Of a DNA stretch of 64,000 nucleotides, positions 42,567 to 46,782 are shown one piece after another (the stretch's first letter is position 1; each line of letters starts with the position of its first letter). The notes below the pieces were generated by a model that was not told where the DNA came from, did not search any database, and saw only the letters and a program-made list of their open reading frames with translations. The stretch lies in the NCBI GenBank assembly GCA_949284715.1, contig CASDWH010000042.1:1-64000 (forward strand), written 5' to 3'. This DNA is from an uncultured bacterium (GTDB taxonomy: Bacteria; Cyanobacteriota; Vampirovibrionia; Gastranaerophilales; Gastranaerophilaceae). The position numbers and the translations under genes are program-made.

Positions 42567-42595
42567 TTGACATTACATTGTGTGCGATGTTTAAT
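42567..42595 (+). promoter_or_regulatory. Promoter of the rpsL-rpsG operon
   Basis: A perfect -35 TTGACA (42567-42572), a 17-base spacer and -10 TTTAAT (42590-42595) lie about 310 bases before rpsL. No other promoter of this quality lies nearer, so the rpsL mRNA should carry a long leader with the tandem repeat. The region 42383-42566 holds only a weak AAAAAGT...ACTTTTT hairpin (42505-42522) that may end the mntR message. Confidence 0.7.
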
Positions 42596-42675
42596 CATAT
42601 TAGCACCTTAGTCGAAATTTTCTTGCCGGATTTGACGGCTCAAGGGGGGCAGATAGAAGCCCGGATGCGTTTGAT

Positions 42676-42838
42676 GGTGAAAAGCCGGAGGCAGTCGGTC
42701 GTGAAAAGCTCAGAGGCGGTCGGTGGTCAAAACCAAAGGCAGTCGGTCGTGAAAAGCTCAGAGGCAGTCGGTCGTGAAAAGCTCAGAGGCAGTCGGTGGT
42801 CAAAACCAAAGGCGGTCGGTCGTGAAAAGCTCAGAGGC
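42676..42838. repeat. Minisatellite of two interleaved units in the rpsL leader
   Basis: Two related units alternate. Type A is 25 bases (GGTCGTGAAAAGCTCAGAGG + CAGTC or CGGTC) and type B is 23 bases (GGTGGTCAAAACCAAAGGCA + GTC). After a divergent first copy the order is A (42697), B (42722), A (42745), A (42770), B (42795), A partial (42818). The array sits about 70 bases before rpsL, after the promoter. Confidence 0.9.
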
Positions 42839-42905
42839 GCGGTTCCCGTAGTATCTTGCCTGTTATCTGTCGAAATGTACATTACAAAGGTAAAAAGGAG
42901 AAATT

Positions 42906-43283
42906 ATGCCTACAATTAACCAACTTGTGCGCTCCGAACGTAAAAAGCTCACAGACAAAACCAAATCGCCGGCTCTTATGGAATGTCCTCAAAGACGCGG
43001 CGTTTGTACCAGGGTATACACAACTACCCCTAAAAAACCTAACTCTGCTTTGAGAAAGGTTGCCAGAGTCAGATTAACCAACGGATTTGAAGTTACATCA
43101 TACATCCCTGGTATCGGACACAACCTCCAGGAACACAGTGTTGTTCTTATCAGAGGCGGCAGGGTTAAAGACCTTCCGGGTGTTAGATATCACATTGTAA
43201 GAGGAACACTTGATACAGCAGGTGTTGCTAACAGAGCGCAAAGCCGTTCTAAGTACGGTGCTAAAAAGGGAGGTAAGAAATAA
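42906..43283 (+). CDS. rpsL: 30S ribosomal protein S12
   Basis: S12 helps keep decoding accurate and is the classic streptomycin target. The 125-residue length is normal. [29 protein letters not shown] and [18 protein letters not shown] are visible. The Lys residues that mutate in streptomycin resistance are both wild type (PKKPNS and RVKDLPG). AAAGGAG is present before the ATG. The stop overlaps the rpsG start in TAATG. Confidence 0.97.
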
Positions 43284-43753
43284 TGTCAAGACGTTCTAAA
43301 CCTGAAAGAAGAATCCCCGCAGCGGATCCTATCTACAATAATGTTGATGTTTCTAAATTTATCAACAGAATTATGCGACGCGGTAAAAAGTCATTAGCAG
43401 AAAAAATCTTCTATGCTGCACTTCAAAAAGTTGAAGAAAGAACTAACGAAAAAGCTTTGGAAGTATTCCAAAAAGCAATTACTAATGCTACTCCACTGCT
43501 GGAAGTAAAAGCAAGACGTATCGGTGGTTCTACTTATCAAGTACCTATTGAAGTTAAAGCTGATAGAGGCTTTGCTCTTGCTTCTTCATGGCTTATTACA
43601 GCAGCCAAAGCAAGAAGTGGTAAATCTTTTATTGATAAACTTACTCTTGAACTTATTGATGCCTCTAATGGTATTGGTGCTGCTTGTAAAAAACGTGAAG
43701 ATACCCATAAAATGGCTGAAGCAAACAAGGCTTTTGCTCATTACAGATACTAA
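43283..43753 (+). CDS. rpsG: 30S ribosomal protein S7
   Basis: S7 binds 16S rRNA and starts assembly of the 30S head. The 156-residue length is standard, with VDVSKFINRIMRRGKKSLAEKI, KARRIGGSTYQVPIEV and KKREDTHKMAEANKAFAHYR. It is coupled to rpsL. In most bacteria fusA and tuf follow; here a terminator comes directly after rpsG, so the str operon is split. Confidence 0.96.
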   Translation: MSRRSKPERRIPAADPIYNNVDVSKFINRIMRRGKKSLAEKIFYAALQKVEERTNEKALEVFQKAITNATPLLEVKARRIGGSTYQVPIEVKADRGFALASSWLITAAKARSGKSFIDKLTLELIDASNGIGAACKKREDTHKMAEANKAFAHYRY

Positions 43754-43777
43754 TTTCAGGTATTTAATAAGGAGTAT

Positions 43778-43810
43778 AAAGAGGACGGTGTTAATTACCG
43801 CCCTCTTTTT
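43778..43810 (+). terminator. Terminator after rpsG
   Basis: AAAGAGGACGGT (43778-43789) pairs with ACCGCCCTCTTT (43797-43808) over 12 positions with one mismatch, followed by TTT. Confidence 0.85.
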
Positions 43811-44045
43811 GTATATCTGTGTATTTGACCTTGTAATGCCGTGTTCCCCTCTCTGTAACTTTTTTCAAGTGGTTATGAACTTTTTGTAACAATAACTATG
43901 TAAAAATTTTAATGAAGTAAATGAAAACCTCGTAAGTGTTATAAATATTATATTATAGCTAATATCTAAAAAAATATTTGTAAATATTTAGGCATGCACG
44001 AATATTTCTGCTATACAATCAAACTGTTTTGGAGTATACTTTATT

Positions 44046-44131
44046 TATAATTTTTTGGAAATGAATAATAAGTATTCCAATTAAGAGGAGATTTTGAGCG
44101 GTAGTGGGTTATTCTATTACCGTTTTTTTTA
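44046..44131 (+). ncRNA. Candidate small RNA between rpsG and gyrA
   Basis: In the 470-base gap between rpsG and gyrA, a TATAAT box (44046-44051) is followed by a stem TTGGAA/TTCCAA (44055-44080). An AAGAGGAG stretch comes next, then a hairpin CGGTAGT...ATTACCG and eight T (ending near 44131). This looks like a short, terminated RNA of about 70 bases. There is no ORF in it and the -35 box is poor, so the call rests on the promoter-terminator spacing. Confidence 0.35.
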
Positions 44132-44163
44132 GGGCTTATCTGGCAAAAGTTTTATTATACAGC

Positions 44164-44196
44164 TAAAAAACGCATTACTGATATTTAGTAATGCGT
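44164..44196 (-). terminator. Terminator of gyrA
   Basis: ACGCATTACT and AGTAATGCGT (44170-44179 and 44187-44196) form a perfect 10-bp stem. Read on the minus strand it is followed by a run of T and lies 28 bases after the gyrA stop. Confidence 0.85.
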
Positions 44197-44223
44197 CTTA
44201 ATAGTTTTTCTTTTATACAGCAT

Positions 44224-46782
44224 CTATTCTTGTTCGTTATCTAGCAGTGAACCCTGCTGGATTGATATATCTTCTGCTATATCTGATGCTACAACGGATT
44301 GGGGCGCTGCCGAGTCCTCATCGCTGTCAGTATTTACTATCTTATTACAAGAAACAACAGTATCGTTATCAGAAAGATTTTGTGCTTTGACACCGGTTGC
44401 AGGTCTGCCCTGGCAGGAAATATCCTGTGCTTTAATTCTTGATACAACGCCGTTTGCAGTTACTATCATAATTTCGTCTTTTTCATCAACAATTGTTAAG
44501 GCCACAAGCCTGGAGGTGCTTGATTTAAACTTGGTTGCAATTAAACCGATGCCGCCTCTGTTCTGTGTTCTGAATTCAGATATCTTTGTCCTTTTACCAA
44601 ACCCGTCAGAGGTTACGACAAGTAAATCTCCGTCTTTGTCCCTTGGTACAATATCACAGCCGATTATTGTATCACCAACTCTTAATTTCATTGAGTTTAC
44701 ACCCCTTGCACTTCTGCCGAGAGGCCTTAAATCCTCAATCGGGAACCTGATTGCCATACCGCAGGAGGTGCCGATTATTATCTCATCATTAGCTTTCGAG
44801 AGTTTAACCCAGTTGAGTTTGTCATCTTCTTCCAGTCCGATTGCTATAATACCGCTTCTTCTGATATTTGCAAAATTATCAAGCTCTATTCTCTTAATAT
44901 ATCCTTTTTGCGTAAGCATAATTAAGTTCATATCGTGAGAGAAGTTACTTACCGGAACAACGGCTGTAATTTTTTCATCCTGCGAAATTGGCAGAACATT
45001 GACGATAGGCAGCCCTTTAGCCTGTCTGCCGCCTTCAGGGAAATCATAAACATTGAGGCTGTAGCAGATACCTTTTGTACTGAAGAATAATACCTTGTCA
45101 TGCATCATTGCAGTAAAGAAGTGCTGTATATCATCATCTTCTTTAGTTTTTATGCCGCTTTTACCGCGGGTTGCACGGTTTTGGCGTTCAAAAGTATCCA
45201 AAGAAATCCTCTTTAAGTATCCTTGATGTGTAATAAATACAGCCATTGGAATGTTTGGTGTAAGATCTTCTATTGTTACTTCATCAAGCTCCGGAACTAT
45301 TTGTGTTTTTCTGTCATCACCGTATTTTTCTTTATCTTCAAGCAGTTCAGCTTTAATAATATTGAGTACTTTCTGTCTGCTTGCTAAGATATCCTCATAT
45401 TCCGCAATCTTTTTGATTAATTCATCATATTCATTTTTAATCTTGTCTTGTTCTAATCCTGTTAAACGTCTTAATTGCATTTCAAGGATTGCGTTAGCCT
45501 GATCCGCGTCAAGTCCGAATCTGCTCATCAAACCGTTGCGTGCATCGTCGGTTGTTTTTGATTTCTTAATAAGTTCAATAACTTCATCCAGTGAACCTAA
45601 CGCTATAAGTAAACCGGCTAATATATGCGCTCTTATTTTTGCTTTCTTTAAGAAATAGATTGTACGTCTTGTTACGATTTCTACACGGTGTTCAACGAAT
45701 TCATTAAGTACATCATACAGATTCATCAAACGCGGCTGTTTTCCGCATAATGCAAGCATGTTTACACCAAATGTCGTTGATAATTGTGTAAACTTAAACA
45801 AATTATTTTTTACTACATCCGGCTTTGCGTCACGTTTAAGTTCAATAACAATACGCATGCCTTCTCTGTCTGATTCATCGCGAAGGTCTGAAATTCCGTT
45901 TATTTTACCTTCTTTTACAAGTTCTGCAATTTTTTCTATTAGTTGTGCTTTGTTAACCTGATAAGGAATCTCTGTAACAATAATTGCAGTTCTAGCCTGT
46001 CTGCCGCCGCCGCCGGGTATTTCTTCTATTGTGGCAACAGCTCTCATTTTAATTGAGCCTCTGCCTGTTTCGTAAGCCTGTTTAATATCCCCTAAACCTA
46101 CGATTGTTGCCGCTGTCGGAAAATCAGGCCCTTTTATGTATTCCATTAATTCGGAAACGGTAATATTAGGATTATCAATCAAAGCAATTGTACCGTCAAC
46201 TATTTCGCACAGGTTATGCGGCGGAATATTGGTAGCCATACCTACTGCAATACCTGAAACGCCGTTCAATAAAAGCATAGGAAGTCTTACAGGTAATACA
46301 GAAGGCTCTTCTAGTGAACCGTCAAAGTTTGGTACAAAGTCTACAGTTTCGCAGTCTATATCGGCCAGCATAGATGTGGTAATTTTATGCATTCTTGCTT
46401 CTGTATAACGCATTGCTGCGGCGCCATCACCGTCAACAGAACCAAAGTTTCCGTGTCCGTCTACTGTTAAATATCTTGTTGAAAAATCCTGAGCCATACG
46501 AACCAGTGATTCATAAACTGCTGTATCACCGTGCGGGTGGTATTTACCAAGAACTTCTCCGACGATACGGGCGCATTTTTTAAACGGCTTGTCAGGAGTC
46601 ATGCCGAGTTCATTCATCGCAAATAATATCCGTCTGTGTACCGGCTTTAGCCCGTCACGGACATCCGGCAGGGCGCGGCCAACGATTACGCTCATTGCAT
46701 AATCTATATATGACCGTTTCATCTCTTCTCTAATATTAACAGGAACGATTTTCCCGTCTGAAAACATATTTTGCTGGCTCAA
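44224..46782 (-). CDS. gyrA: DNA gyrase subunit A
   Basis: GyrA cuts and reseals DNA while GyrB drives negative supercoiling with ATP. The protein is about 852 residues. [28 protein letters not shown] and the catalytic Tyr in [11 protein letters not shown] are clear. The quinolone-determining segment reads [17 protein letters not shown]: Thr at the Ser83 position and Glu at Asp87, both found naturally in susceptible species. The beta-pinwheel domain lacks the exact QRRGGKG box and has [10 protein letters not shown] in its place. I put the start at TTG 46782, five bases after AAGGAGG, rather than at 46803, which lies upstream of that ribosome site. Confidence 0.93.

Follow-up and report, generated by a model that had tools for sequence, protein, structure and literature searches.

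The rpsL-rpsG locus and its promoter

The window, which is the whole 64,000-nt stretch of DNA that was analysed, carries the genes of ribosomal proteins S12 (rpsL) and S7 (rpsG) on its plus strand (Table 1). The two genes abut, and the bicistron ends after rpsG, where a terminator-like site (44096-44125) is followed by a gyrA-like ORF on the minus strand. The operon stops without fusA and tuf, having the convergent gyrA-like gene opposite (43283-44224). The upstream neighbours are a regulator of the iron-dependent repressor family and an MntP-like pump. The draft genome has 42 contigs. Its closely related named genomes are Candidatus Gastranaerophilales MAGs, which would place the window in that group.

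The promoter of the rpsL-rpsG transcript is composed of TTGACA (42567-42572) and TTTAAT (42590-42595) with 17 nt between them, and matches 11 of the 12 consensus bases. An earlier note on this DNA had described a near-perfect promoter upstream of a repeat array and the S12 gene downstream; both are present, the gene being identified by PF00164. The automated promoter scan accepts only -10 boxes whose second base is A, and for that reason alone it missed the TTTAAT promoter. The rpsL leaders were gathered from about 80 genomes of the family, and nearly all of those examined share the 17-nt spacing and have a -10 box like that of the window.

Table 1. Positions of the leader features and genes within the window
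Feature	Position	Strand	Remark
Promoter of rpsL-rpsG transcript, TTGACA-17-TTTAAT	42567-42595	+	sequence; family conservation
P1, conserved 5' hairpin of leader RNA	42606-42645	+	covariation, arm swaps, rpsL linkage
P1 stem	42606-42614 with 42636-42645		
P1 loop	42623-42628		UUGCCG
P2a 5' strand (candidate closing helix), GGCAGAUA	42648-42655	+	complementary to 42864-42871
Minisatellite array	42677-42838	+	in variable domain of leader
Unit A'	42677-42700		24 bases, degenerate
Unit A, first copy	42701-42725		25 bases
Unit B, first copy	42726-42748		23 bases
Unit A, second copy	42749-42773		25 bases
Unit A, third copy	42774-42798		25 bases
Unit B, second copy	42799-42821		23 bases
Partial unit A	42822-42838		17 bases
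P2a 3' strand (candidate), UAUCUGUC	42864-42871	+	in block conserved within genus
Shine-Dalgarno of rpsL, AAGGAG	42895-42900	+	sequence; kept in family leaders inspected
rpsL, ribosomal protein S12	42906-43283	+	Pfam PF00164, E 8.5e-41
rpsG, ribosomal protein S7	43283-43753	+	Pfam PF00177, E 8.3e-57

The P1 hairpin of the leader RNA

P1 begins about 5-12 nt after the promoter and was found across about 20 genera. Its loop is GUGCUG in most genera, and UUGCCG in the window's genus and in g38; judged from the sequences, this change could mark an altered ligand contact. The UUGCCG loop also occurs in the L144 lineage. The native arms of P1 pair with -11.0 kcal/mol, compared with -7.6 ± 0.5 kcal/mol when arms are swapped across genera, and none of 2000 swaps is as good. 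In an alignment of 16 distinct sequences, whose bulge was set by inserting N in some rows and is thus slightly biased toward structure, 95% of the cells are paired, the covariation score is 0.447 against 0.273 ± 0.027, and both sides are changed in 16 cells, compared with 5.8 in shuffles. Sliding the pairing partner abolishes the covariation signal. The arm-exchange test is free of the choice of bulge placement.

Where a covariance model finds P1, it finds one copy per genome (E < 1e-11), located at rpsL. The exact 28-base core of P1 has 79 matches in genomes of 84,980 species, all 79 upstream of rpsL. Their titles are mostly Gastranaerophilales, Melainabacteria or bacteria without a name, and the matches titled Acinetobacter (two) and Muribaculaceae (one) look like mislabelled bins. 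Some genera seem to have lost P1: G017 (L039) has AAAAAGG repeats at the position expected for P1, and G008 (L041) has only 33 nt from the -10 box to ATG.

The leader has a conserved, covarying structure 5' of a ribosomal protein operon, as is characteristic of r-protein leader RNAs. Against the Rfam families, rpsL leaders included, the window leader had no match near any gathering score, and the leaders of eight other genomes gave nothing at E ≤ 1. A preQ1-II riboswitch match in the last part of the leader reaches 22 bits against a cut-off of 47 and was taken as chance. Mimicry of 16S rRNA by P1 and by the motif CCGGAAUGCGUAAGGGUUUCAGG described below was likewise set aside, the local matches being no better than those of shuffles (P 0.13-0.33). 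The plus strand from 42604 to 42905 has no terminator-like site, which distinguishes the leader from a transcription attenuator. P1 looks like a control element for ribosomal protein S12 that catalogues do not yet list. Because it is associated exclusively with rpsL-rpsG, and in light of other rpsL leaders (PMC2965389), we infer that P1 would be a regulatory element for S12/S7, probably autoregulatory, with S7 or S12 as its ligand.

The variable domain and its tandem repeats

In the window's genus, two stretches of the leader region are conserved, one comprising the promoter and P1 and the other the final 40 nt ahead of ATG; the interval between them is species-specific. The leader measures 198-521 nt from the -10 box to ATG in this genus and 33-241 nt in other genera, and the distance from P1 to the ribosome-binding site varies from roughly 20 to 450 nt across species. 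Complementary strings, GGCAGAU and AUCUGYC, flank the variable slot and define the candidate helix P2a. They carry a compensatory change in G005 (GACAGAU/AUCUGUC), and G003 deviates from the pattern. For 11 genera, the native P2a strands pair with -16.4 and exchanged strands with -13.2 ± 1.0. In the full-leader fold of the window's species, the P2a pair probability is 0.05, and the helix is not favoured.

The content of the slot differs among genera. It is nearly empty in g53 and g42, and some other genera hold another conserved domain with the motif CCGGAAUGCGUAAGGGUUUCAGG, which is absent from the window's genus and, in the five relatives holding it, is found only near rpsL. This second hairpin motif was seen in L034, L035, L036, L054-L057, L082, L106, and other family leaders, often accompanied by the arms GGACGUAGGG...GGCAGUCC, suggesting a three-way domain.

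In the window, the slot is occupied by a minisatellite (TRF; best score 296, period 73, 95% matches), so the array that the earlier note had reported in the rpsL leader does exist. It is by far the strongest tandem repeat of the window, the runner-up scoring 73. The unit sizes of 25 and 23 bases given earlier hold as well, but the alternation is not strict, and one unit had been overlooked. The higher-order period is the 73-base trimer A-B-A. The units carry point changes, and the longest exact repeat internal to the array is 36 bp. In being made of head-to-tail imperfect units longer than about 10 bp, the array conforms to bacterial minisatellites (VNTRs). Its GC content is 0.57, compared with 0.38-0.39 in the flanks and 0.35 in the window, in agreement with the GC-rich units noted before. 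The pattern of unit A (≤3 mismatches) has no second site in the 2.0-Mb genome, where the array is therefore unusual, and further genomic copies of the kind left by a dispersed repeat or mobile element (REP, MITE, CRISPR) were sought in the same 2.0 Mb and none was found.

Two congeners have arrays of their own in the same leader slot, a 62-bp unit repeated five times in G002 and a 97-bp unit repeated three times in G006. Three others (G001, G003, and G005) have the slot without an array, and arrays are lacking in the rpsL leaders of most other genera. The arrays of G002 and G006 are similar to each other (53 against 20.2 ± 3.1 for shuffled sequences), and the window array has no significant similarity to either. 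The A-B unit does align to a single stretch of the G001 insert, AACAGCTCCAAGACGGCAGAGGTCAAAGACCAAAGCAGT, with a score of 31 against 16.3 ± 2.2 (0 of 300 shuffles). Since this sister species has one diverged A-B copy, the unit was amplified within the genus. In the lineage whose S12 starts with MPTMNQLVRQERK, tandem repeats of 111 bp, 55 bp, and 8 bp occur in the same slot: 111 bp × 1.9 in L144, 55 bp × 2.8 in L221, and 8-bp runs in several leaders. Read by eye, what is repeated in L221 looks like the closing hairpin. The leaders L144, L151, L154, L188, and L210 contain an inserted module bounded by GTTTTAAA...TTTAAAAC, which looks like a long imperfect hairpin; it has 8-bp TCACTTAN repeats in one arm and is duplicated in L144.

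At the same loci, the 9.0 kb of leader contain 7 arrays and the remaining 71.8 kb of noncoding DNA contain 9, a roughly sixfold higher density in the leader, the leader count including the window by ascertainment (6 without it) and the noncoding estimate being crude in that only ORFs of at least 80 codons were masked.

Interpretation and comparison with known systems

What the computations show is that P1 exists, that it is linked to rpsL, and that the domain after it is variable. The reading that we favour, with a probability of about two in three, is that the array arose by a largely neutral tandem expansion in a leader domain that tolerates it, P1 being the conserved, probably autoregulatory element. 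It is favoured because the arrays share no fold or sequence across clades and because altering the copy number in silico predicts no consistent effect on the ribosome-binding site. The rpsL-rpsG mRNA of Gastranaerophilales would have a structured 5' leader with P1 at its 5' end, followed by a variable domain, which in several genera may be bounded by the closing helix, and by a short Shine-Dalgarno linker. P1 would most likely be bound by S7 or S12, which would thereby repress the operon that encodes it, in the manner of other str-type operons. As P1 and the ribosome-binding site would work without fixed spacing, changes of length would be tolerated in the variable domain, and slipped-strand duplication could therefore amplify pieces of it repeatedly. 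The window minisatellite would be one such amplification, apparently a recent one, of a unit that is single and diverged in the sister species, and is probably close to neutral for expression.

The alternatives concern first of all what the array might do. The earlier note proposed that it could tune expression, and gain or loss of units might alter leader length or folding and hence rpsL-rpsG output, as at a contingency locus. Arrays do recur in this single leader in several species, and in Moraxella expression is altered by tandem repeats situated between the promoter and the start codon (PMC4679880). Yet most species are without an array, among them three congeners and the members of most other genera, and removing or adding units in silico changes the predicted Shine-Dalgarno exposure non-monotonically (0.39, 0.39, 0.62, 0.59, 0.64, 0.68, and 0.50 for zero to six units; 0.52 for the native leader and 0.56 with more units). 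With exposure showing no trend with copy number, we consider tuning unlikely. Slightly more doubtful still is that selection favours tandem amplification in a repeat-driven, fast-evolving domain between P1 and the ribosome-binding site, setting the strength of S12/S7 autogenous control in each species. The enrichment over other noncoding DNA may indicate that something favours arrays, a point against neutrality. Against the neutral reading also stand the insert of about 100 nt or more kept by all congeners, its purine-richness across the genus (58-64%), and the related repeats kept by G002 and G006. The units were also suggested to be RNA-binding sites, in which case the array would titrate or concentrate a regulator. 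They are well conserved inside the array, and the window array folds more weakly than shuffles (z +2.6), which would leave it more single-stranded. This proposal found no support and is quite improbable, as the unit occurs only in this array in the genome, unit sequences differ among array-bearing species, and the folding statistics are opposite in G002 (z -3.5) and G001 (z -3.2). With G006 at -1.1, no fold signal is common to the arrays, and repeated hairpins as the array's function were rejected on these conflicting z-scores.

Other alternatives question whether the array is transcribed, real or noncoding. A weak promoter-like TTGCCT-16-TACATT, read by eye, lies 3' of the array at about 42857-42884, and rpsL transcription might begin there and leave the array outside the mRNA. 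This is very improbable, since P1 covaries as RNA and in about 20 genera keeps almost the same distance from the strong promoter, just past the -10 box; the promoter-P1 arrangement extends to genera in which the -10 box and ATG are only about 75 nt apart. An RNA structure at the position of P1 implies a transcript start upstream of P1 and hence of the array, so transcription from the upstream promoter would run through the array, which belongs to the mRNA leader as the earlier note had it. An assembly artefact, affecting the array or its copy number, is still harder to credit: the genome is a draft and its named relatives are MAGs, but point changes set the units apart, the longest exact repeat is much shorter than the words that assemblers usually work with, and the slot also carries arrays in other assemblies of the genus. 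Hardly conceivable is a short coding sequence, either a leader peptide or the 113-aa ORF at 42578-42919. An open frame does span the array; however, the ORF begins inside the promoter, and coding is rejected because unit lengths of 24, 25, 23, 62, and 97 bp shift the frame.

On present evidence the minisatellite itself is a by-product, and P1 is the part of the leader worth following. As a structured RNA, the leader is well supported and missing from the catalogues, and it goes with a single essential operon across a gut-bacterial order that is largely uncultured. It adds to the few lineages with a described rpsL leader. Between the -10 box and ATG it ranges in length from 33 to 521 nt, and with the recurrent arrays of its variable domain it offers a natural series that probes how much slack an essential r-protein leader has.

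In E. coli, the S7 repression site lies between rpsL and rpsG. In the window, by contrast, rpsL runs directly into rpsG (43283), and the conserved RNA is located ahead of rpsL. The E. coli str operon, which has the same S12 and S7 genes, is under translational repression by S7 (cited in PMC2965389). Naville and Gautheret (2010) described rpsL-leaders in Listeria, Xanthomonas, Pseudomonas, and Rickettsia as a "multiform ribosomal protein leader" (PMC2965389). These are likewise structured, lineage-specific leaders before rpsL-rpsG, thought to mediate autoregulation by S7 or another r-protein. They are attenuators with an intrinsic terminator, whereas none was found in the Gastranaerophilales window leader, which also has no Rfam sequence match to them and places its hairpin at the 5' end, before an expandable domain. 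Twenty ribosomal leader candidates (PMC7247131) resemble P1 in being r-protein leader RNAs; searched by term, that paper yields no rpsL leader, its single 'rpsl' being rpsI in an L13 entry, and names neither Cyanobacteria nor Melainabacteria. Direct repeats 5' of start codons, some before r-protein genes, are also known in Beggiatoaceae as TAACTGA heptamers with a proposed role in translation (PMC4679880). There, one heptamer is dispersed in 169 sets and often overlaps the expected ribosome-binding site, whereas the window repeat is unique in its genome and leaves the Shine-Dalgarno intact.
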